From assembly GCF_008275125.1 (NCBI RefSeq), contig NZ_CP043473.1, positions 496,001-560,000 on the forward strand: a stretch of 64,000 nt of DNA, in the 5' to 3' direction. A program made the translations under genes and the position numbers. Origin of the DNA: Chromobacterium paludis (GTDB taxonomy: Bacteria > Pseudomonadota > Gammaproteobacteria > Burkholderiales > Chromobacteriaceae). A model generated the notes under the pieces. That model did not search any database. It was not told the origin of the DNA and worked only from the letters and a program-made list of their open reading frames with translations. Shown here one piece after another: positions 41,736-57,721 of the stretch (positions are counted from its first letter, which is position 1; each line of letters starts with the position of its first letter).

Positions 41736-42036
41736 GTGCTAGACGTTGGAATGGGGGCGGGAGGTGCAAGCGCGTGGCACCTCCGCGGTTCGTGCCATTG
41801 GCAAGCACTTGTTCTGCCGCGCGGGGGACGCTTGCCATGAAATAGAATGAAGCGGCGAATCCTGTCCACATCTCCATGCTCGGCGCGCAAACGGTAGTGT
41901 TTTACCCAGTATGGACATGAATCTGTTCCTGCAAACACAGCTTTCCAGCAGCCTCTGGTGAGTGGCGTGTTTCGTTTAGTTTAGGTCTCTGCAAGAAGCA
42001 AGACGATTGGTGTCGTGATGATTTTAATGAGAAATC
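41736..42036. other. Non-coding stretch upstream of the RelA/SpoT-domain gene
   Basis: I see no gene here. An 8-bp TGGCAAGC/GCTTGCCA inverted repeat lies around 41800-41840. GC content falls toward the right, marking the edge of the low-GC insert. Confidence 0.5.
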
Positions 42037-42110
42037 TTGACGGCATATTTTTTGCAAACCAAAATATGGGAGTTTTCACCCGTCATGTCGGGTGGCTAAT
42101 TATAAGTTAG
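42037..42110 (+). promoter_or_regulatory. Promoter with embedded inverted-repeat operator and leader hairpins
   Basis: A -35-like TTGACG (42037-42042) is followed 17 bp later by CAAAAT. Inside it is a perfect inverted repeat CATATTTT-N9-AAAATATG (42044-42068) overlapping both spacer and -10. The leader then has a CACCCG-N6-CGGGTG hairpin (42077-42094) and a CTAA-N7-TTAG repeat (42096-42110), just before the AGGAGG ribosome site. Confidence 0.5.
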
Positions 42111-42129
42111 CTACTAGGAGGATATTGCA

Positions 42130-43407
42130 TTGGTACTCACGAAAAGCAAAATTGACAAGGCGGGGGATGCGCTTGCGAAGGACAGCTTTCACGATGTGGA
42201 GGACATGATCGACCTCGAGGAGGCCTTCGATGAGTATAGAAAATCACATTTGGAACCGCTTTCAGAGACCACTCTGGAACTTCAAGCCTGGCTCAATGAA
42301 TACGGACACGACTATTACATTGCGCAGCGCCTAAAGCGCAAACCTCAAATAGTCCGTAAGCTTAACCGCCTCAGCGTACGCCTTACTCAGCTCCAAGATA
42401 TTGGAGGTTGCAGAATAATTGTAGAAAAGAACGAACTTGTGGACCAACTTGTTCAGTTCTTAAAAGATAAAATTTCAAAAACCGTTGACTTGAAACTTAA
42501 AAGAGTAACGGATTATAGAGAGAAAGGCCGCGATATAACAGGGTATCGTTCTGTCCATTTTCTTCTTGAACGCAACGACAGAAAGCTAGAGTTGCAAATT
42601 CGCAGTCGGATTCAGCATTATTGGGCTGAGAGTATTGAACGCACATCCGTCATCTATGGGCATCATCTTAAAGAAGGAGAGGGTGATTCAATCGTAATTT
42701 CGTACTTTCAAAAACTATCTGATGCTTTCTTTGAGATTGAATCGGGTAGAACACCATCAGCTCGTTTAAGACTCGAAATTGACGTAGCAAAGAAGGATGC
42801 GGAAAGAATAATTCGAAATGTAGATTCATCTAATGCAATAGATAGCCATGTTAATGATGATATCATCCTTACTCTATCGGAGAAAGAAAGACGAAGTGCC
42901 AGTCCAATAAATAATTGGATTATTGTATTTGACTGGAATACTGGACAGTTTGTGAGTTGGGACATTGTTGGCAAGACACCAGATGAAGCAATCGAAGCAT
43001 ATGTCCGCTATGAGAACCAATTTCCTGTTGAAAGAAATTTTGAGGTTGTACTCATCGGTTCTTCGCGCGTTGCAACAGTTAGGCGAACTCACAGCCACTA
43101 CTTCGGTATCGAAGACTACGACAAGATATTAGAAAGCCTAGATGAATCAATTCAGGGCTTTGAAAAAATTGGCGCAATAGACGTTTCTGGTCGCCAAATT
43201 CTGCTCAAACTCTATACCAAACACTTTTGGGGGCAAAAGACAGTAGCTCAAGATACATTGCGAAATCACTTTTGCAAAGACGTTAAAAATCTTGATGCAG
43301 CTTTGGATAAATTGGTTCAACAGGGACTTGTTCTCCGAGAGTCTGCTGCTGGCCCTGTATCCCTCAACATCAAAGCTCGCCCTGAGATTGACAAGCTGGT
43401 CTCTTGA
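42130..43407 (+). CDS. RelA/SpoT-domain protein with probable C-terminal winged helix
   Basis: This 425-residue protein has an alarmone-synthetase-type RelA_SpoT domain at about residues 60-200: the RLKRKPQIVRKL basic motif, Asp90 in DIGGCR, GYRSVHF near 138-144, and ELQIRS at 154-159. No HD hydrolase, TGS or ACT domain is present. A middle domain (about 255-325) is unrecognised. Residues 345-420 look like a winged helix (GRQILLKLYTKH, then LDAALDKLVQQGLVLRE). The TTG start at 42130 has AGGAGG 8 bp upstream. Low GC against its neighbours suggests transfer. It may make (p)ppGpp or act as a toxSAS-like toxin. Confidence 0.8.
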   Translation: MVLTKSKIDKAGDALAKDSFHDVEDMIDLEEAFDEYRKSHLEPLSETTLELQAWLNEYGHDYYIAQRLKRKPQIVRKLNRLSVRLTQLQDIGGCRIIVEKNELVDQLVQFLKDKISKTVDLKLKRVTDYREKGRDITGYRSVHFLLERNDRKLELQIRSRIQHYWAESIERTSVIYGHHLKEGEGDSIVISYFQKLSDAFFEIESGRTPSARLRLEIDVAKKDAERIIRNVDSSNAIDSHVNDDIILTLSEKERRSASPINNWIIVFDWNTGQFVSWDIVGKTPDEAIEAYVRYENQFPVERNFEVVLIGSSRVATVRRTHSHYFGIEDYDKILESLDESIQGFEKIGAIDVSGRQILLKLYTKHFWGQKTVAQDTLRNHFCKDVKNLDAALDKLVQQGLVLRESAAGPVSLNIKARPEIDKLVS

Positions 43408-43447
43408 ACTTGCTGCATAACAATACATTCAAGCTAATTCAGAGCCG

Positions 43448-43555
43448 TAGGTTGGGATAGGCTTGCGAAGCCCAACGTTTACCGCGAAGGGTGAAATCAT
43501 ATTTCATGGCTCTATTCTTTAGGTAAACGTTGGGCTTCATTTTATTCAGCCCTAC
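43448..43555. repeat. Composite inverted-repeat element (MITE- or REP-like)
   Basis: A perfect 16-bp inverted repeat, AAGCCCAACGTTTACC, lies at 43468-43483 and 43522-43537. It is enclosed by GTAGG ... CCTAC ends and a second GTTGGG/CCCAAC pairing on the left. The 108-bp whole can fold as a cruciform and has no coding capacity. It follows the RelA/SpoT-domain gene at the edge of the low-GC insert. Confidence 0.65.
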
Positions 43556-43579
43556 AGTCCCATTCCTGCGGATGCCTAG

Positions 43580-43690
43580 CCGAGCAAGAATGCTTGCTGA
43601 TGCTGGTCGAGCGCAAAGTGATGCTGCATACCGGCGATGTAGTCATTGAGAAAACGCGCTCTCTGGATGAACAGCTTCGTCCCATATGAG
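43580..43690 (+). other. Possible gene-end remnant
   Basis: An open stretch of about 36 codons (AEQECLLMLVERKVMLHTG.. ending LRPI) without a start codon or ribosome site ends in TGA. It reads like the tail of a truncated gene, but I cannot name a family. Confidence 0.25.
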
Positions 43691-43730
43691 CGCGCAGCAA
43701 CCTATCCATAACAATGCGGATTGGCCTGCT

Positions 43731-44864
43731 TCACGCCGGCTGCTGCTGCGTCGCGCAGTGGATGCCGCCGCCGCCGGCCGCTATCGCGTCTATGTTCAGC
43801 TGCACGATCTCGCGGTTTGGGAATTGCTCGCGCAGGATGTCGCGGCAGTTGGCGTCGGCGTCGGCGTCGCCGAATTGCGGCGCGATCACCGCGCCGTTGC
43901 AGACGTAGAAATTGACGTAGCCGGCGGCGAATTCCCGGTTCTCGAACGCGGGGCGGATCTTGTCCGGTCCGCGCAGGGTGATGACCTGCAGCCGGCGTCC
44001 CTTGGCGTCGCTGGCCTGGCGCAGGATTTGCAGATGCTTTTGCGTCACGGCGTAGTCGAAGGATGAGGTATCGCTGTCCAAGCCGGCGATCACCACGCCG
44101 GGGCGGACGAAGCGCGCGTAGAAGTCCGTGTGGCCGTCGGTGATGTCGCGGCCGGCGATGCCGGGCAGCCAGATCACCTTGTCCACGCCCAGCAGACGTT
44201 TCAATTCGGCCTCGCAGGCCGCCTTGCTGACGCCGGGGTTGCGGTTGCGGTTCAGCACGCAGCTTTCCGTGATGATGGCGGTGCCGTCGCCATCCACTTC
44301 CAGGCCGCCGCCTTCCAAGGTGAGCGAGCTGGCCAGCCGCTTGACGCCGGCTTGGCCGCAGACCGCCGCCGCCACCTTGGCGTCCTTCGCATGGGATTGC
44401 TTGCCGCCCCAGCCGTTGAAGTTGAAGCCGGCGCCGGCCCATTGGCCTTGCGCGTCGCGCACGAACACCGGCCCGGTGTCGCGTATCCACAAGTCGTCTA
44501 GCGGCTGGGCGATCAATTGCACGCTGTCGCCGCATAGGCGGCGCGCCAGTTCCAGGTTTTCTTGCGGCGCCAGCATGCGCACCGGCTCGAACTGGGAGAT
44601 GGCGCGGGCGATGCCGGCCAGATGGCTGCGGGCCGGCCCCAGCAACTTGTCGCCCCAGATTTCCGCGCGCGGGCCGAAAGCCATCCAGGTGGCGGCGTGC
44701 GGCTCGGCTTCGTCCGGCATGCGCCAGCCGGAGGTCTGCAGCCGGTCTTTCGGCGCGGCGGCGTTTTGGGCTTCAGCCTGGCTGGAGCCGCCGGCCAGGC
44801 AGCCGCCCAGCAGGGCGCTGCCGGACAGCAGGGTGGCGTTTCGCAGGAAATGGCGTCGGTTCAT
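43731..44864 (-). CDS. Tat-exported, lipobox-bearing agmatine deiminase-family protein
   Basis: This 377-residue member of the agmatine deiminase/peptidylarginine deiminase family would convert agmatine to N-carbamoylputrescine and ammonia. Guanidine-modifying fold motifs visible are LDDLWIRDTGP, FNGWGGK, LEGGGLEVDG, the GHTDFYARF segment and the C-terminal catalytic GGGGIHC. Unusually, the N-terminus reads MNRRHFLRNATLLSGSALLGGC, a twin-arginine signal followed by a lipobox. It therefore appears to be an exported lipoprotein. The ATG at 44864 or the one at 44867 follows GAGGAG. A divergent LysR gene likely controls it. Confidence 0.85.
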   Translation of the reverse strand: MNRRHFLRNATLLSGSALLGGCLAGGSSQAEAQNAAAPKDRLQTSGWRMPDEAEPHAATWMAFGPRAEIWGDKLLGPARSHLAGIARAISQFEPVRMLAPQENLELARRLCGDSVQLIAQPLDDLWIRDTGPVFVRDAQGQWAGAGFNFNGWGGKQSHAKDAKVAAAVCGQAGVKRLASSLTLEGGGLEVDGDGTAIITESCVLNRNRNPGVSKAACEAELKRLLGVDKVIWLPGIAGRDITDGHTDFYARFVRPGVVIAGLDSDTSSFDYAVTQKHLQILRQASDAKGRRLQVITLRGPDKIRPAFENREFAAGYVNFYVCNGAVIAPQFGDADADANCRDILREQFPNREIVQLNIDAIAAGGGGIHCATQQQPA

Positions 44865-48799: not shown

Positions 48800-49447
48800 A
48801 TGGAAAACTATCTGACGCATGGCGGCTTGATTGCCGCGGTGTCCTTGTATGCGATAGGCGCGGCCACTCCCGGGCCAAGCAACCTAGCCATCATGGACGC
48901 GGCGATGTGCCATGGACGGCTGCGCGCGCTGGCGATGGCGGCGGGCGTGGCGCTGGGTTCGCAATGTTGGGGCTGGCTGGCCGCCTGCGGGCTGGCTGGC
49001 GTGATGCGGGAGGCGTTGTGGCTGATGACGGCGATGAAGCTGGCTGGTGGGTTCTATCTGCTCTATCTGGCACTATCGTCCGCCAGGCAGGCGGCTGCCA
49101 TCGAGTGGGCGCCTGCCGCCGCGGTGCCGCCCGCTCAGGATGGCATCTGGCGTTGGCTGGCGCAAGGCGCCGCCATGCACATCGCCAATCCCAAGGCCAT
49201 TTTGGTGTGGCTGTCCATTGTCACGCTGGCATTGCCTAAGGATGGCGGCGCGCAGCAGGCTTTTCATGTGGTCTGGGCCTGCGGCGCGGTGGCGGTGCTG
49301 GTGTTCTGCGGCTATGCGCTGGTGTTTTCCACCGAGGCCGCGCGCCAAGGCTATCTCAAGCTGCGCCGCCCTTTCCAAGCCATGCTGGCGGCGGCGTTTG
49401 GCTGGGCCGGGGTCCGGATGCTGATGACTTCGTCGCAGTCGACGTAA
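48800..49447 (+). CDS. LysE-family amino-acid exporter
   Basis: This 215-residue inner-membrane protein has five to six hydrophobic helices. The family signature AIGAATPGPSNLAIMDAAMCHGR lies at the end of helix 1, and an ANPKAILVWL segment mid-protein is typical of LysE/RhtB exporters. Substrate unknown. It is divergent from ccoG and convergent with the MarC gene. Family members expel amino acids or homoserine-lactone-like metabolites when pools rise. Confidence 0.88.
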   Translation: MENYLTHGGLIAAVSLYAIGAATPGPSNLAIMDAAMCHGRLRALAMAAGVALGSQCWGWLAACGLAGVMREALWLMTAMKLAGGFYLLYLALSSARQAAAIEWAPAAAVPPAQDGIWRWLAQGAAMHIANPKAILVWLSIVTLALPKDGGAQQAFHVVWACGAVAVLVFCGYALVFSTEAARQGYLKLRRPFQAMLAAAFGWAGVRMLMTSSQST

Positions 49448-49484
49448 TCATACGGCCTGCGCAAGGCAGGCCGGGAGTAAGGGC

Positions 49485-50114
49485 TTAGCGGGTCAGCTGC
49501 GGGAACAGCCGGTACAGGCCGTCCACGATGATTTCCACCGATACCGCGGCCAGCAGCATGCCCATCACGCGGTTGACGATATTGATGCCGGTCTGGCCCA
49601 GCAGGCGGGTCAACGGCGTGGCCAGGGTCAGCGCGCCGTAGCAGGTCAGCGCCACCAGGAGGCTGCTGACCAAGAGATAGACCACTTGCACCCAGGAAGC
49701 GGCGGTGGTGGCGTAGATGATGACGGTGGAGATGGTGCCGGGGCCGGTCATCAGCGGGATGGCCATCGGCACCACGGCGATATTGGTCTTGTGGCCGGCT
49801 TCCTCGCGCTCCTGCTTGGTGGTTTTGGTGGGGCCGGGCTTGGCGTTCATCAGCGCGATGGCGATCAGCATCAGCAAGATGCCGCCGCCCACCTGGAACG
49901 AGCCTATGCTGATGCCGAGAAAGCGCAGCAGCGTCTGGCCGACGACGGCGAACAAACACATCACCACGGCTACCGCGATGGCGGTGGTCTTGGCGACTTT
50001 CTGCCTTTCTTCCTGGCTGGCGTTGGGCGTCAGGCTGATGAAGATGGGGATGGCGCCTAGCGGATTCACCAGAACCAGCAGGGCGACAAAGATTTTTGCG
50101 ATTTCGATTTCCAT
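49485..50114 (-). CDS. MarC-family integral membrane protein (YhgN-like)
   Basis: This 209-residue protein has six predicted membrane helices. It has the MarC/UPF0056 features FVALLVLVNPLGAIPIFISLTP at the start and PMAIPLMTGPGTIST in the middle. Despite the name, the family has no proven role in multiple antibiotic resistance; its substrate is unknown. It is a single gene convergent with the LysE exporter. A 120-bp gap separates it from the P-type ATPase operon on the same strand. Confidence 0.9.
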   Translation of the reverse strand: MEIEIAKIFVALLVLVNPLGAIPIFISLTPNASQEERQKVAKTTAIAVAVVMCLFAVVGQTLLRFLGISIGSFQVGGGILLMLIAIALMNAKPGPTKTTKQEREEAGHKTNIAVVPMAIPLMTGPGTISTVIIYATTAASWVQVVYLLVSSLLVALTCYGALTLATPLTRLLGQTGINIVNRVMGMLLAAVSVEIIVDGLYRLFPQLTR

Positions 50115-50234
50115 GGTCGGGCTATGCTAGCGTGTCTTGACGGAGTTGGCGTTCACGGCCGGGACATGAAGCTGCGCGCATGCGCCGCGGTCCGCGCGCA
50201 GGCTTTCAGCATAGTCCGGCGGCGGGGGCGTCGC

Positions 50235-52121
50235 TCAGTCCTCGCGGTAGCGCAGGATGCGTCCCGAGTTGGCCATCACCAGCACGGTGCCGACATTATG
50301 CAGCAGAGCCGCGCTCAGCGCGCCGGCCGGCCCCAGCCAGCCCGCGGCGGCCAGCGCGGTCAGTCCGGCGGACCAGCCCAGGCCGAACAGCACATTGGCT
50401 TGGAGGATGGCGCGGCAGCGCCGGCTCAGGCGGATCGCGGTGGCCAGCCGCAGCAGGTTGTTGCCGGTCAACACCACGTCGGCTGCCGCCACGGCGACGT
50501 CGGCGCCGCGCGCGCCCAGGGCCACGCCCACCGCGCCGGCCTTCAGCGCCAGCGTGTCGTTGATGCCGTCGCCCACCACCAAGGGGCGGCGGCCGGCGGC
50601 GATTTCTGCCCGCACGCGGGCCAGTTTGTCCTCGGGCAGCGCCTGCGCCTCGGCCTGGTCCATGCCCAGTTGCCGCGCCAGGGGCAGGGCGGCGTCGGCG
50701 CGGTCGCCGCTGAGCAGCAACTGATGCTCCAGGCCCAGCGCGCGCAATTGGCCCAGGGCTTGGGCCGCCTCCGGCCGCGGGCTATCCGCCAGGTGGAACC
50801 AGGCCAGCAAGCGGCCGTCCCGCGCCAGTCCGGCCAGGCTGCCGGCGGCCTGCGGCGGCTCCGCCGGGCAGCCGCGGCGGCTCAGCCATTCCGGCCGACC
50901 CAGCACCAGCTGTCCCCAGGCGCTGTCGGCTTGCAGGCCCATGCCCGGCGTCTCGCGGATGCCGCTTAGCGGCAGCGGCGGAGCGTCGCCGCCCAGCGCG
51001 GCCAGCGCGCGGCTGACCGGGTGGCTGCTGGCGGCGGCCAAACTGGCGGCCAGCCGTTCCGGCGCCGGCTCGCCGGCATCCGCCGCGATGTCCGTCCGCT
51101 GCACGGCCAGCCGGCCATCGGTCAGCGTGCCGGTCTTGTCTATCACCAGGGTGTCGACGTCGGCCAGCTCTTCCAGAAACGCCGGGCCGCGGATCAGGAT
51201 GCCGTGGCGCGCCGCCGCCGCCACGCCGGCCACCGCCGTAGACGGCGCGGCGATCACCAGCGCGCAGGGGCAGGCGGCCACCAGCGCGGCCAACGCGGCC
51301 TGACTGCCGCCGCCGGCGAACCAGGCGATCGCCGCCACGGCCAGCGCCACCGTCAGATAGGCCGAGGCGTGGCGTTCGATGAAGCGGGTGATGGCCGGTT
51401 TGGACGATTCGGCCGCCTGCATCAGCGCGATGACCCGTCCCAGCGCCGACTGGGAGCCGACGCGGCTGACCTCGATGCGCAGCGCGCCGTCCAGGCTGAG
51501 CGCGCCGGCGTAGACCAGGCTGCCGGGCGCGACGTCCTGCGGCAAGGCCTCGCCGGTGACGGGGGAGGCGTCCAGGCTGGCATGGCCTTCCAGCACCAGG
51601 CCGTCGGCCGGGATGCGGTCGCCGGCGCGGATGTCCAGCCGGTCGCCCGGCGCCAGGCTGTCGTTGTCCGCGTCTTCGACGACGCCGTCCGGCAGCAGGC
51701 GGCGGCAGCGGCCCCGGCCCAGTTCCGCCAGCGCGCGTATCGCCTCGCGCGAGCCCAGCAGGCTGCGTTCTTCCAATACATGGCCCAGTTCCATCAGAAT
51801 GGGCAGCAGGGCGGCGCTGGCGAGGTCGCCGGCCGCCCAGGCGCCGACGATGGCCAGGGCCACCAGCAGGTCGGCCAGGCCGTGCAGATCGGGCTGGCGC
51901 AGGCCATGCCAGGCGGCGCGCAGCGTGGGCGCGGCCAGCAGCAGGGAGGCCGCGCCGGCCAACAAGCGGGCCAGCGCGTCGCCATTGGCGACGAACAAAT
52001 GCCAGCAGCCGGCCAGCAGCAGCAGGCCGCCGGCCAGCATGGTCAGCAGCAGGCGGCGGCCAGTCCGGCGCTGCTCGGCCGCGTCCAGCAAGGGGGAGGC
52101 GTGATGGGCGCAGCCGCTCAT
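50235..52121 (-). CDS. P1B-type (heavy-metal) P-type ATPase lacking an N-terminal HMA domain
   Basis: This 628-residue ion pump has the P1B features: metal-site CPC at residues 284-286 (ACPCALV), the actuator motif TGEAL near 189-193, phosphorylated Asp329 in DKTGTLTD, the SSHP motif and GDGINDTLAL. The N-terminus is short, with only a Cys-His-rich CAHH and no HMA domain. It therefore probably moves Zn, Cd, Cu or another metal, but the specificity cannot be read. It overlaps the SPFH gene before it by 4 bp and is the last gene of an SPFH operon, an unusual partner set. Confidence 0.9.
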   Translation of the reverse strand: MSGCAHHASPLLDAAEQRRTGRRLLLTMLAGGLLLLAGCWHLFVANGDALARLLAGAASLLLAAPTLRAAWHGLRQPDLHGLADLLVALAIVGAWAAGDLASAALLPILMELGHVLEERSLLGSREAIRALAELGRGRCRRLLPDGVVEDADNDSLAPGDRLDIRAGDRIPADGLVLEGHASLDASPVTGEALPQDVAPGSLVYAGALSLDGALRIEVSRVGSQSALGRVIALMQAAESSKPAITRFIERHASAYLTVALAVAAIAWFAGGGSQAALAALVAACPCALVIAAPSTAVAGVAAAARHGILIRGPAFLEELADVDTLVIDKTGTLTDGRLAVQRTDIAADAGEPAPERLAASLAAASSHPVSRALAALGGDAPPLPLSGIRETPGMGLQADSAWGQLVLGRPEWLSRRGCPAEPPQAAGSLAGLARDGRLLAWFHLADSPRPEAAQALGQLRALGLEHQLLLSGDRADAALPLARQLGMDQAEAQALPEDKLARVRAEIAAGRRPLVVGDGINDTLALKAGAVGVALGARGADVAVAAADVVLTGNNLLRLATAIRLSRRCRAILQANVLFGLGWSAGLTALAAAGWLGPAGALSAALLHNVGTVLVMANSGRILRYRED

Positions 52122-53155
52122 GGCTTCTCCCCGGGCAGGATGAGCCGGCCGCTGCCGGCCGGGTCCACCGTGGTGACCTTGCCGGCCTTTGCCAGCACGG
52201 CCTGCATACGCTCCAGGTAGAGCTGGCGCAGCCGTTCCGCGCCCGCCGGCGCGCGCATGCCGGGAGCCAGCGCGGCGATTTCGCTGGTTTCGGCGCGGGC
52301 GAGCGACAGCCGCTCGCCGGCCTGGGCGCGGGCATTGGCCAACTGGCTGTCAACGGCCGCGCGGGCTTGCTGTTTCCCCAGCGCGGCGGCGGTGCTGGCC
52401 TGGGCCAGCTGGCGCTGCACGGTCTGGTCGGCGGTGAGCACGTCGTCGAAGGCGGCTTGCGCGGACCGCGGCAGCGCGGACTGCAAGTCTATGCGCGCCA
52501 CCTGCAGGCCCAAGCCGGCGCCGCGGCTTTGCAGGGCATCCAGCGCCTGGTTGCTGGCCTGGGCCAGTTCGGCGCGCAGCCGTTCACGCTCTGCCGCGTT
52601 GGCGGAGGATAGCCTGGCCTCGCGCGTGGCCAGGATGGATTCCAGGCCGCGTCCGGCGCACAGCTTCAGGGCGCTGGCGGCGACCACCCGGTCCAGCAGC
52701 GGCAACGCCTGCCCGCCCTGCAGGACGTAGGCGGACGGATCGACGATGCGGTAATAGACGGTGGCGCTGAGCTGGACCACGGCCAGGTCGCCGGTCAGCA
52801 GATAGCCGGAGCCGGCCAGGCGGTCGCCCATCTGGGCCAGCGGCATGTCCTCGTCGTCCAGTTGGGCGGCGTCGCCGTCGCGCGCGAGCAGGGCGACCCG
52901 GCGCTGCAGCACCGTTTCCGGCGAGGGCAGCATCGTCACTTCCTCCAGCGGGCTGGGCCAGGCCAGCAGCAGTCCGGCATGCCGCACGCGGTCTATGGCG
53001 CCGAAGCGCCAAACCACGGCCTGGCTGTCGGCCGGGATGGAGCGGACGTGGGCCAGCAGCCAGGCCAGGCCGCTCAAGGCGGCCGCGGCCATCAGCAGGA
53101 GGTAGGCCAGGCGCAGCGATTGGGCCAGCGGCGCGTCGGCGGGGGAGGGTTTCAT
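52118..53155 (-). CDS. SPFH-domain protein, HflC-like (second copy)
   Basis: This 345-residue protein has one N-terminal membrane helix (about residues 15-37), a following SPFH/band-7 domain (SIPADSQAVVWRFG...) and a long Ala/Glu/Arg-rich coiled-coil region (about 190-300). It resembles HflC-type periplasm-facing SPFH proteins that form large membrane cages. It overlaps the upstream HflC-like gene by 4 bp and the downstream ATPase by 4 bp, so translation is coupled. No protease gene is adjacent. Role inferred as part of a membrane scaffold. Confidence 0.83.
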   Translation of the reverse strand: MKPSPADAPLAQSLRLAYLLLMAAAALSGLAWLLAHVRSIPADSQAVVWRFGAIDRVRHAGLLLAWPSPLEEVTMLPSPETVLQRRVALLARDGDAAQLDDEDMPLAQMGDRLAGSGYLLTGDLAVVQLSATVYYRIVDPSAYVLQGGQALPLLDRVVAASALKLCAGRGLESILATREARLSSANAAERERLRAELAQASNQALDALQSRGAGLGLQVARIDLQSALPRSAQAAFDDVLTADQTVQRQLAQASTAAALGKQQARAAVDSQLANARAQAGERLSLARAETSEIAALAPGMRAPAGAERLRQLYLERMQAVLAKAGKVTTVDPAGSGRLILPGEKP

Positions 53156-54129
53156 CGTTTGCCCGCCTTGGCCGGCTTGGCCTCCAGTCCTGGAGGGCCT
53201 TCCACCAAGGCGCGGAAGGGCGCGGCGTCGGTGCGCAGGATCAGCCGGGTATTGGCGTTGACGATGTGGTCCAGGGTGTCCAGCGAGCGCAGCGTGCGAT
53301 AGAGGGCAGGGTCGCTCTGATAGGCCGCGCCGTAGACGCGGGCGGCCTCCGCTTGCGCCTGGGCCTCGATGCGCGCGGCCTCCACGCTGGCGTTAGCGCG
53401 CAGCACGCGCGCGTCGCGCGCGGCGTCGGCGCGGATGGCCGCGGCCTGTTCGTTGCCGGCCGCGGTGCGTTCGGCGGCCAAGGTGTCGCGCTCGGCGCGC
53501 ATGCGCGCCACGGTGGCGTCCAGCGTGACGGCCGGCAGGGTCAGCCGCTCCAGGCCCACATCGACCACGCGCACGCCGTAGCTGTCCAGCAGTTGCTGGG
53601 ACAATTGGCGCCGCAGCTGTTGTTCGAACTGGGCCAGGCGCAGTTGCGAGGGGTCGGTATTGACCAGGCTGCCCAGCGCGAAGCCGCTGCTGCTGGTTTC
53701 CAGGGCGGAGCCGACGAAGGTGCGTATCTGCCGCGCCGCTTCGTCCGGCTGGTTGCGCGCCGCGCGCAGAAAGCGGGCGATGTGCGCGGGGTCGGCCGGC
53801 ACCTGCCAGGCGACATAGGCCTGCATGATTACGCGCAGGCCGTCGCGGGTGCCCACGTCCTGCAGGCCGCTGGAGGTGGCGCGCAGCCGCAGGTCCACCG
53901 GCACCGCGCTCTCGAAGGGCTGGGGCAGGCGCCAGGCCAGGCCGGGCCGCAGCAGAACGCGCGCGGGATCGCCGAAGCGGGTGATCACCACCGCCTCGCC
54001 GGAGCGCACCTGCAGCATGCAGCAGGACAGCAGGGCGAGGATCAGGGCCAGGGCGCCGGCCAGGCGCGGCCAACGGCGCGGCGGCCGGGCGTCGCGCGCT
54101 TCATGATGTTCGTGGGCGTGAGGTGTCAA
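53152..54129 (-). CDS. SPFH-domain protein, HflC-like (first copy)
   Basis: This 325-residue protein has a His-rich N-terminal tail (HAHEHHEARD), one membrane helix, then a band-7 domain starting MLQVRSGEAVVITRFGDP. It has the typical SSGFALGSLVNTDPSQ stretch and a coiled-coil C-terminus. In E. coli HflK and HflC form a hetero-oligomeric cage around FtsH; here an HflK-like gene lies 10 bp upstream and another HflC-like gene overlaps the end by 4 bp. The His-rich tail could bind metal, which would suit the ATPase partner; that is speculation. Confidence 0.85.
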   Translation of the reverse strand: MTPHAHEHHEARDARPPRRWPRLAGALALILALLSCCMLQVRSGEAVVITRFGDPARVLLRPGLAWRLPQPFESAVPVDLRLRATSSGLQDVGTRDGLRVIMQAYVAWQVPADPAHIARFLRAARNQPDEAARQIRTFVGSALETSSSGFALGSLVNTDPSQLRLAQFEQQLRRQLSQQLLDSYGVRVVDVGLERLTLPAVTLDATVARMRAERDTLAAERTAAGNEQAAAIRADAARDARVLRANASVEAARIEAQAQAEAARVYGAAYQSDPALYRTLRSLDTLDHIVNANTRLILRTDAAPFRALVEGPPGLEAKPAKAGKR

Positions 54130-54139
54130 GACGCTCTCC

Positions 54140-55792
54140 TCAATGGCGGCCGTCAGGCGCGGCCAGGGGCGGGCCGGCGGGATTGGCGTTGGAACGCAGG
54201 TCCAGCATGGGCATGCCGGACGGGTCTATGCGATGGTCGATGATGATGGGGCTGGCGCCGGCCAGGCCCTGGCGCAGCCGGTGCAGATAGCGCTCCAGCA
54301 GGAAGGCCTGTCCGCCCGCCTGCGCGGCCTGGCGGTCTGCGGAAAAGGCGATGGACGCGGCTTGGCCGGCGGCCAGTTTCTCGGCCGCGGCGGCGCTGGC
54401 TTCGTCGCGCGCCAGGCGTGCTTGCTGCCGGGCCGCGCTGAGGGCGCGCACGGCCTGGCCGCGCTCGCGCGCCACATTGGCTTGCGCCTGGATCTGCGCC
54501 GCCTGCACATTGTGGTAGGCGTTGGCGGCCGCAGCCGGCGGATGGATGGACTGAATCACCACCGCCAGCAGCTCCAGCCCGCTGTCGGCCGCGTCCAAAC
54601 GGGACTGGATTTGCAGGCGCAATTGTCGGGACACGCCGGCCAGCTCGGCGCCCAGCAGCGCGTCCAGCTGTTGCGAAGCGAAGGCGTGCAGAATGGCCTG
54701 GCCGGCGATGTCGCGCAGCAGGCCGGGCGCGTCGGCCTGGCGGTAGCTGTCCAGCGCGGCGCGGTCGCTTAGGCCTAGCCGGTAGACCAGCCTGACGTCC
54801 AGCGCCATCAACTGCGTGGTTTGGCGCTCGCCCTGGCCGCTGGCGATCAATTGCATGGTTTCCGCGCCGTGGCTGCCGTCCCATAGCCGGTCCTGGTCGG
54901 CTGTGGCCGGGGTCGACAGGCCTACGCCCATCTGGTGGACGGCGCCGTTTTCTATCAGCCTGACCGCGCCCAGAGGCCAGGGCAGGCCCAGGTGCAAGCC
55001 GGGTTGCCAGACGGCGGCCGCCTGGCCGAAGCGCTCGTAAATGCCGCGTTGGTCCACGGCTATCACATTGAGGCTGCTCAGCAGCCACGCGAGGCCGGCC
55101 AGCGCGGCGAGCAGCTGGGGCGCGGTCCCGGCCATATAGCGCAAGGCCCAGCTTTGCCGCAGCTGGACGTCGGGCAGGGACGGCGCCGCGCGCCATCCGC
55201 CGCGCAGAACCGCGGCGGCCAGGCAGCCGAAGACGGGGCGTTGCGGCAGTTCGCGTTGGTGGGGCTGGAAGGCGCGGAGCAGACTGCGCAGCAGTTGTTC
55301 GGCGCACAGCAGCGCGATCCAGGCGCCGGCCAGCGGCAGCGCGGCGGCTGTCCAGCCGTAGCCGGCCAGCGCGGCCAGCGCGATCAAGGAGGGCAATAGC
55401 AGCGCGGGCAGGATGCCGCGCAGCAAGTCGGCGAGGGGGCGCGCCTCCGGCCATTCGTCCCGGGCGGTTTGGCTCAGCTTGCGTTCCAGCAGCAGGCAGC
55501 AGAAGACGGCAAGCAGGCCGCAGGTGGCAGCCAGGGCTTGCCAGGGATGGTTGGCAGCGGGAGGCGTCGACAAGGCCTGGCTCAGGCTGAGCCAGGCTGG
55601 AAAGCCGGCCAGCGCGCTGCCGGCCGCTAGCCGGACCAGGCTCCAGCCCAGATGCCGGCCGACCCAGCGCCGAGCCCGCAGCCATGGCAGGTTTCCGCGC
55701 GAGCGCTTGGCCGATGGCGGCTTGAGCAAGGCTTGGGCCAGCGCTTGGCCCAGCCGGCGCTGCGCTTCGCTAAACAAGGGTTGGGCCGCCAT
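54140..55792 (-). CDS. HflK-like SPFH protein with polytopic N-terminus
   Basis: The 550-residue frame from ATG 55792 has several hydrophobic helices in the first 240 residues. An SPFH domain follows (SLNVIAVDQRGIYERFG, then WQPGLHLGLPWPLG), with an Ala-rich coiled coil and an HflK-like ending IIIDHRIDPSGMPMLDL. E. coli HflK has only one N-terminal helix, so this is a long variant. No ribosome site precedes 55792. The same frame continues upstream, interrupted only by a TGA at 55880-55882, so the real protein may begin at 56029 (629 residues) or the gene may be freshly broken. Confidence 0.78.
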   Translation of the reverse strand: MAAQPLFSEAQRRLGQALAQALLKPPSAKRSRGNLPWLRARRWVGRHLGWSLVRLAAGSALAGFPAWLSLSQALSTPPAANHPWQALAATCGLLAVFCCLLLERKLSQTARDEWPEARPLADLLRGILPALLLPSLIALAALAGYGWTAAALPLAGAWIALLCAEQLLRSLLRAFQPHQRELPQRPVFGCLAAAVLRGGWRAAPSLPDVQLRQSWALRYMAGTAPQLLAALAGLAWLLSSLNVIAVDQRGIYERFGQAAAVWQPGLHLGLPWPLGAVRLIENGAVHQMGVGLSTPATADQDRLWDGSHGAETMQLIASGQGERQTTQLMALDVRLVYRLGLSDRAALDSYRQADAPGLLRDIAGQAILHAFASQQLDALLGAELAGVSRQLRLQIQSRLDAADSGLELLAVVIQSIHPPAAAANAYHNVQAAQIQAQANVARERGQAVRALSAARQQARLARDEASAAAAEKLAAGQAASIAFSADRQAAQAGGQAFLLERYLHRLRQGLAGASPIIIDHRIDPSGMPMLDLRSNANPAGPPLAAPDGRH

Positions 55793-55879
55793 GGCTTGGC
55801 GGCGGCGGCGCCAACGCGCCAGCGCCGCCGAGGCGTGCAGGGCGGCGGCCAGCAGCGTGAGCGCGGCGGCATGGCTCAG

Positions 55880-56029
55880 TCAGATGGTCGAGGCGAGCGT
55901 GGGTTCGGGCAGCCAGCCGGCGAGCAGGCAGAAGAGGGCTGCCAGCGCGGCCAGGCAGGCGTGGGCGCGGAACTGGCGTTCCCGCGGATCGGGGACCGTC
56001 GGCGGCGCGGCGGGCGCGGGCGGATTCAT
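55880..56029 (-). CDS. N-terminal fragment in frame with the HflK-like gene
   Basis: This 49-residue frame starts MNPPAPAAPPTVPDPRERQF, has one membrane helix and ends at TGA (55880-55882). The next codons in the same frame continue as a second hydrophobic helix straight into the HflK-like protein. It is therefore best read as that protein's first helix cut off by a point nonsense codon (Trp TGG to TGA would be one step) or by a sequencing error. A separate small membrane protein is the alternative. Confidence 0.5.
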   Translation of the reverse strand: MNPPAPAAPPTVPDPRERQFRAHACLAALAALFCLLAGWLPEPTLASTI

Positions 56030-56233
56030 GCTCGCGGCCTGCTTGGACGGGCGGCGAAAACGGGATGACGAAGCGGCGCGAAATGGCGGGTCATGATGAT
56101 TTGTCTTGCCGTCATAAGCATGGCGGGCAGCCTGTTGTTCAAGGTGCAGGGGGCGTCCCCTGACATCATCATACTGAACTTGGCTTGGCAAGGCATCCCG
56201 CGACGCCGGCGGCGCGGCCGGCGCAAGGGCGCG

Positions 56234-57721
<1,488 letters not shown>

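Follow-up and report, generated by a model that had tools for sequence, protein, structure and literature searches.

Three SPFH-protein genes share a conserved operon with an HmtA-like metal pump in Chromobacterium paludis and other bacteria

Why do three genes for SPFH-superfamily proteins lie in one operon with the gene for a heavy-metal P1B-type ATPase? We addressed this question for a locus of Chromobacterium paludis, contained in a stretch of 64,000 nucleotides that is called the window below. The locus consists of four co-directional genes on the minus strand (50235-55792), transcribed in the order K, C1, C2, and pump. The original prediction for this DNA, made from its letters, had described a four-gene operon with contacts of 10, 4, and 4 bp; the minus-strand coordinates confirm a gap of 10 bp between K and C1, and overlaps of 4 bp each for C1/C2 and C2/pump. 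The reading that we prefer, at a probability of roughly 0.6, is that the operon encodes an HmtA-type module for Zn/Cu uptake, in which the pump would sit in a three-part SPFH assembly. Statements on published work refer to the excerpts of the cited papers that were covered.

The four genes and their products

The Pfam domain Band_7 scores above its cut-off in K, C1, and C2, which places all three proteins in the SPFH superfamily. C1 (53152-54129, 325 aa, TTG start; Band_7 103.2 bits) scores as HflC (TIGR01932, 98.7 bits). C2 (52118-53155, 345 aa, one TM helix) scores as HflK (TIGR01933, 95.7 bits) and not as HflC, and K, a polytopic protein whose open part spans 54140-55792 (550 aa; Band_7 51.9 bits), also scores as HflK. 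All three stay below the NCBIfam equivalog cut-offs (50.2, 98.7, and 95.7 bits for K, C1, and C2, versus 159.4, 134.4, and 159.4). The original prediction of two HflC-like proteins stands for C1 but fails for C2. The pump (50235-52121, 628 aa) has the E1-E2 ATPase and hydrolase domains of a P1B core and exceeds the cut-offs of TIGR01525 and TIGR01512; Pfam lists no HMA domain in it, which bears out the prediction of a P1B ATPase lacking this domain. No sigma-70-like promoter was found across 49400-56400. Elsewhere in the window, a RelA/SpoT-domain protein (42130-43407, 425 aa, 56.2 bits) is encoded where the GC content is low (0.466 at 42001-44000).

The first gene is interrupted. K had been predicted to start at 56029 (MNPPAPAAPP); this start is not open because 49 codons are followed by an in-frame TGA at codon 50 (55880-55882), which breaks the 5' part of the gene (55793-56029). 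The next K start after the TGA is the ATG at 55792, and from there the assignment as an HflK-like Band_7 protein holds. Most K relatives listed are 625-663 aa long. All 13 full-length rows of the K alignment (A1) are open at the TGA column, as is the N-terminal piece of K on a C. alticapitis-like contig (G002). A K relative from the database (P0002, 493 aa) is 86% identical, and its first residues match another reading frame of the window; a database pump (P0121) is 97% identical to the window pump. We infer that P0002 and P0121 come from a sister strain whose K gene carries a further, second lesion.

Conservation and co-occurrence of the unit

We scanned contigs with alignment A1, which yielded 503 relatives of K, and kept the best 80 of the 503 as loci. 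In tblastn searches, the same order and orientation, K-C1-C2-pump, was found in all 80 kept loci; the survey for this gene order that had been suggested with the original prediction thus found it conserved throughout the best 80 of 503. Greedy ORF calling recovered the four ORFs in only 31 of the 80 loci because long antisense frames displaced genes, and the count of 80 is the one from tblastn. The pump is full-length in 77 loci, K is cut by the contig start in L017, and C1 lies in two pieces in L022. Small gaps and 4-bp overlaps recur among the kept loci (e.g., L030, L037, and L045). With its order kept in 80 of 80 loci, the four-gene arrangement is not a product of chance. The protein distances of the four genes correlate with r values of 0.93-0.98 (77 loci), as shared descent alone could give.

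Since the 80-locus survey was seeded on K, the reverse co-occurrence was also tested. We used the genus of Pseudomonas panipatensis (G781, the genome of locus L041), which was picked because the unit is present. Thirteen of 25 genomes contain the pump (E ≤1e-90), and the identical 13 contain K (E ≤1e-40), each on the same contig; the other 12 lack both. Fisher's test gives a p value of 1.9e-7, which serves as a guide only because the 25 genomes are related. Among 72,556 plasmid records, K is present in 10, and the pump (51-58% identity) is present in the identical 10; the next match in the pump search falls to 40% identity over 40% of the query. A pump search of the plasmids with the limit set at 1e-80 gave no match although the ten records are listed with smaller E-values, and the count used here is that of the ten-record listing. 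In a sample of the order, five of 399 matched: the own genome, three with all four genes, and G482, in which a 38% pump match is of the ZntA type and no SPFH match occurs within the 13 kb taken. In a sample of the class, one of 369 matched, which is too sparse for a co-occurrence test. No relative was found in viral contigs.

Within Chromobacterium, an orthologue of K is present in three of 19 genomes. The gene marC is found in 18 of the 19; dapE lies directly beside it in 15 of these, which lack the unit there, and the pump lies beside it in three, where the unit is placed between dapE and marC. All six Aquitalea loci have dapE beside the unit, and five have marC; the sixth contig ends in the pump. 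Presence and absence at one site, together with the shared distribution, indicate that the unit was gained or lost as a whole. This site is empty in 15 of the 18 marC-bearing Chromobacterium genomes but occupied by the unit in Aquitalea, and the unit may thus have been lost or transferred several times. The operon coupling between SPFH proteins and pump that had been predicted is upheld by the gene order in all 80 loci, the identical presence and absence in 25 of 25 genomes, the same 10 plasmids, and the one-site pattern in Chromobacterium. A functional bond between the SPFH genes and the pump is strongly supported by this co-occurrence.

The search for an additional obligate partner gave none: the Chromobacteriaceae loci are flanked by marC, and an MbnB/TglH-like family (one member scanned) occurs in 20 of 80 loci. 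In Pseudomonas loci (e.g., L029:15925-17552), the pump is often followed by two genes, one of the MbnB/TglH/ChrH type and one of the DUF2063 family; members of each family are present in 20 of 80 loci. Such gene pairs are known from metal-binding peptide pathways.

The interruption of K raises the possibility that the locus is decaying in this genome and that the unit no longer functions, which would be compatible with our preferred reading for the family. Decay would account for the in-frame TGA, for the short K of the putative sister strain beginning with residues from another frame, and for the finding that 15 of the 18 marC-bearing Chromobacterium genomes lack the unit at its site. However, dN/dS relative to C. 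alticapitis is between 0.15 and 0.20 in all four genes (K 0.199 over 445 codons, C1 0.149, C2 0.179, and pump 0.170), the reading frames of C1, C2, and the pump are open in the window, a shortened K may still be made from the ATG at 55792, and the TGA may be a sequencing error. We regard decay as a serious possibility, at somewhat less than even odds. Because its first gene is interrupted, the unit of this genome may function with a truncated HflK-like protein, or may not function.

Identity of the pump and response to zinc

The original prediction held that such an arrangement had no described function. This was wrong, because the window pump is by best match the putative orthologue of Pseudomonas HmtA, and the P. 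aeruginosa cluster is already part of the zinc literature (PMC4542158, PMC8531726, PMC9431628). Over 98%, the window pump shares 58% identity with P0160, a P. aeruginosa protein that has 1424 member sequences; P0160 is probably HmtA (PA2435), judging from its neighbourhood and family and not from its letters. The four full-length P1B paralogues of the own genome are 35-39% identical to the window pump, and the other P1B pumps in five unit-bearing genomes are 34-39% identical; of these P1B pumps, the putative P. aeruginosa HmtA orthologue is therefore the closest to the window pump (58% versus 34-39%). It also has the linked HflK/HflC-like genes of an HmtA-type pump. PA2435 adjoins PA2437-PA2439, which are annotated HflC, HflC, and HflK (PMC4542158 Table 2). 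According to PMC8456098 and PMC10393844, citing Lewinson 2009, HmtA is a P1B ATPase of the inner membrane through which Zn and Cu are taken up; the review PMC10393844 asks for import to be confirmed. The import claim rests mainly on overexpression (PMC10393844).

The comparison of pump residues, which included an alignment to 4umv, found the CPC metal motif (C284, P285, C286; 51264-51272), Trp583, and the pair His608-Asn609 (50295-50300) in all 77 full-length pumps. The ZntA-type paralogue in the own genome (L002) and G482 have Asp plus another residue at the His-Asn position, and Lys one column from Trp583. Lys and Asp in the last two TM helices are the typical ZntA signature. This signature was not found in the pumps of the unit, where Trp583 and His608 occur instead (77/77). 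The pump resembles ZntA/CadA-type P1B exporters in its P1B core and CPC motif, and differs from them in having His-Asn and Trp in place of the Asp/Lys region and in that no HMA domain was found.

If the pump exported Zn/Cd-type metals as ZntA does, the operon would be a resistance unit. The score above the cut-off of the cadmium family TIGR01512, the derivation of the import claim mainly from overexpression (PMC10393844), and the failure to find a Zur box upstream of this copy fit such a role. However, all 77 sequences have other residues in place of the Lys and Asp found in ZntA-type pumps, and expression of the P. aeruginosa cluster rises when zinc is depleted (PMC4542158, PMC9431628, PMC11761036); we consider export improbable. 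The more general combination of SPFH proteins with a generic heavy-metal exporter was set aside, as the residue signature and the best match point to HmtA.

Several studies link the P. aeruginosa cluster to zinc. A znuA mutant expresses its genes at 5.6- to 14.4-fold higher levels (PMC4542158 Table 2), the PA2439 promoter is shifted by Zur with zinc (PMC8531726), PA2437-PA2439 are raised by NAC-induced zinc starvation (PMC9431628 Table 2), and zinc-depleted cells contain more of these three proteins, with only partial significance (PMC11761036). In the excerpts covered, no repression of hmtA mRNA by added zinc was seen (PMC8531726), and a review names hmtA as an exception to Zur binding (PMC10393844); both points count against reading the operon as an uptake module.

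A Zur-like box (at least 10 of 14 positions) was found upstream of K in 42 of the 80 loci, mostly in Pseudomonas, and in 1.7% of random windows from the same loci; the count includes many close relatives and many approximated K starts. None of the Aquitalea, Rhizobium, and Paraburkholderia loci reaches 10 of 14 positions (L017, whose contig starts inside K, was left out). Upstream of K in the window no Zur box was found, the best site matching 7 of 13 positions, and none of the 17 sites in the genome that match the box with at most three mismatches is at the operon. Weak Zur boxes in this genome mean little because a reversed control pattern gave 34 sites. The failure to find a box before this copy and the interrupted K count against our preferred reading.

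The best Zur-like palindrome of the genome, with one mismatch, is located at L137 (G000:C1:2970781-2970800), with no obvious zinc gene among the ORFs listed there. At L138 (G000:C1:2097543), a FUR-family gene lies beside a CobW-type GTPase gene and a Zur-like box, TGTTATAAAGTAACA. At loci L048, L062, L066, L069, L083, L086, and L094, full matches to a Zur-type box (13 of 13 positions) lie some 5-6 kb downstream of the pump, and an Amidase_3-family gene is located in the vicinity.

A possible SPFH assembly around the pump

The model of K contains TM helices, an SPFH domain, and a long helix, and matches HflK in a structure comparison. Positive-inside counts predict that the SPFH domain is outside; for the shortened K, the fold model has five TM helices versus four segments by hydropathy, so the side on which its SPFH domain lies is not certain. 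If the SPFH domain is outside, as these counts suggest, the N-terminal leader of C1 is cytosolic. This leader, MTPHAHEHHEARD (54091-54129), is His-rich. In all 80 loci, the segment that leads up to the TM helix of C1 contains at least four His, and in 61 of 80 it contains at least 12, although this segment may include residues ahead of the true start. No such leader is present in the canonical HflK and HflC encoded by this genome, whose first 45 residues are free of His. The His-rich stretch claimed for one HflC copy is thus real and conserved, but it is an N-terminus and not a tail. The CAHH/His-rich start of the pump, also part of that claim, is not general, as 27 of 80 pumps have no His in their first 30 residues.

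We infer a physical assembly, an enclosure of the pump, and a role for the leaders. The pump would move Zn/Cu across the inner membrane into the cytosol; K, C1, and C2 would assemble with one another, on the periplasmic side, into an SPFH cage or platform that surrounds it; and the His-rich cytosolic leaders of HflC-like subunits would form a metal-binding collar at its cytosolic exit. The proposed assembly resembles the complexes of stomatin, an SPFH protein whose oligomer is reported to enclose the membrane transport proteins AQP1 and UT-B (PMC12407830; 9zd2). Those complexes join human stomatin to passive channels, whereas the operon described here is a dedicated one with an ATP-driven metal pump.

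The N-terminus of K has a predicted six-helix fold that may resemble that of CDF zinc transporters (YiiP, ZnT). None of 30 K members matches PF01545 (Cation_efflux) at E ≤1, and 13 aligned rows show no conserved Asp/His metal site in the K helices. Comparison of CDF and K profiles, which are shallow, gave probabilities of 1.3% and 0.3%, versus 0.4% for MarC and 0.7% for the pump as controls. As these probabilities are like those of the controls, a CDF origin of the six-helix domain was kept as a fold lead only. A bolder version would make K a chimera: a membrane domain of CDF fold (YiiP/ZnT-like), its metal site lost, would be joined to an SPFH cage subunit. Together with C1 and C2, K would form a dedicated three-component cage around a P-type ATPase that imports Zn/Cu, and many His-rich tails would provide a metal collar on the cytosolic side; the whole would be an encapsulated bacterial metal-uptake machine. 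This version is doubtful.

The trio shares with HflK/HflC-FtsH of E. coli the SPFH domain plus long helix fold, and the SPFH domain predicted outside; it differs in having three subunits, a polytopic N-terminus, a His leader, a pump in the operon, and scores below the NCBIfam cut-offs. The trio might act not as a transport cage but as an FtsH adaptor: by recruiting or shielding FtsH, it would let the availability of metal decide whether the pump, or other membrane proteins, are broken down or left intact. In favour of this, the SPFH folds match that of E. coli HflK, an FtsH binder (structures 7wi3 and 9cz2), and FtsH is a zinc protease (PMC13086221); however, this genome has a separate canonical HflK/HflC pair, and the trio is tied to one pump with shared presence and absence. 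An adaptor role seems unlikely to us. The genome also has a second cluster of three SPFH-domain genes (L013-L015, G000:C1:2328675-2331210), apart from the canonical pair (2599988-2601567).

In P. aeruginosa the trio PA2439/PA2438/PA2437 corresponds to PA14_33070/33080/33110 and to PaFlo5-7 (PMC9431628 Table 2 and PMC13086221). Deletion of PaFlo5-7 leaves wild-type growth in LB, lowers biofilm by about 20%, and attenuates the strain in wax-moth larvae (PMC13086221). These weak phenotypes count against a cage; metal phenotypes were seemingly not in view in that study, as its main text contains "ATPase" zero times and "zinc" once. The phenotypes, and likewise the Zur-like box ahead of K in 42 of 80 loci, would also suit mere co-regulation: the SPFH genes and the pump gene would respond to one signal, and the SPFH proteins would have a role in membrane organisation that involves no contact with the pump. 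However, the strict co-occurrence in genomes and plasmids exceeds what co-regulation requires, and the 4-bp overlaps are recurrent (e.g., L030, L037, and L045); we think co-regulation alone very unlikely.

The hmtA cluster of P. aeruginosa (PA2434-PA2439) resembles the window in having HflK, HflC, and HflC annotations beside a P1B pump (PMC4542158 Table 2). In P. aeruginosa, PA2436 sits between the SPFH genes and the pump, whereas the window has no such gene; the window also differs by its interrupted K, upstream of which the search for a Zur box gave none. A literature search found no paper that treats the SPFH trio and the pump as one machine among the matches listed; in these, as excerpted, the cluster appears as neighbour genes in zinc studies, or the SPFH genes appear without the pump.

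HmtA is puzzling as a P1B ATPase that is reported to be an importer. If the trio cages the pump, bacteria would have an equivalent of the stomatin-transporter complexes that is encoded by an operon of its own, and this would offer a concrete handle on why an HmtA-type pump imports. Studies of the pump alone or of the trio alone may have seen half a machine.
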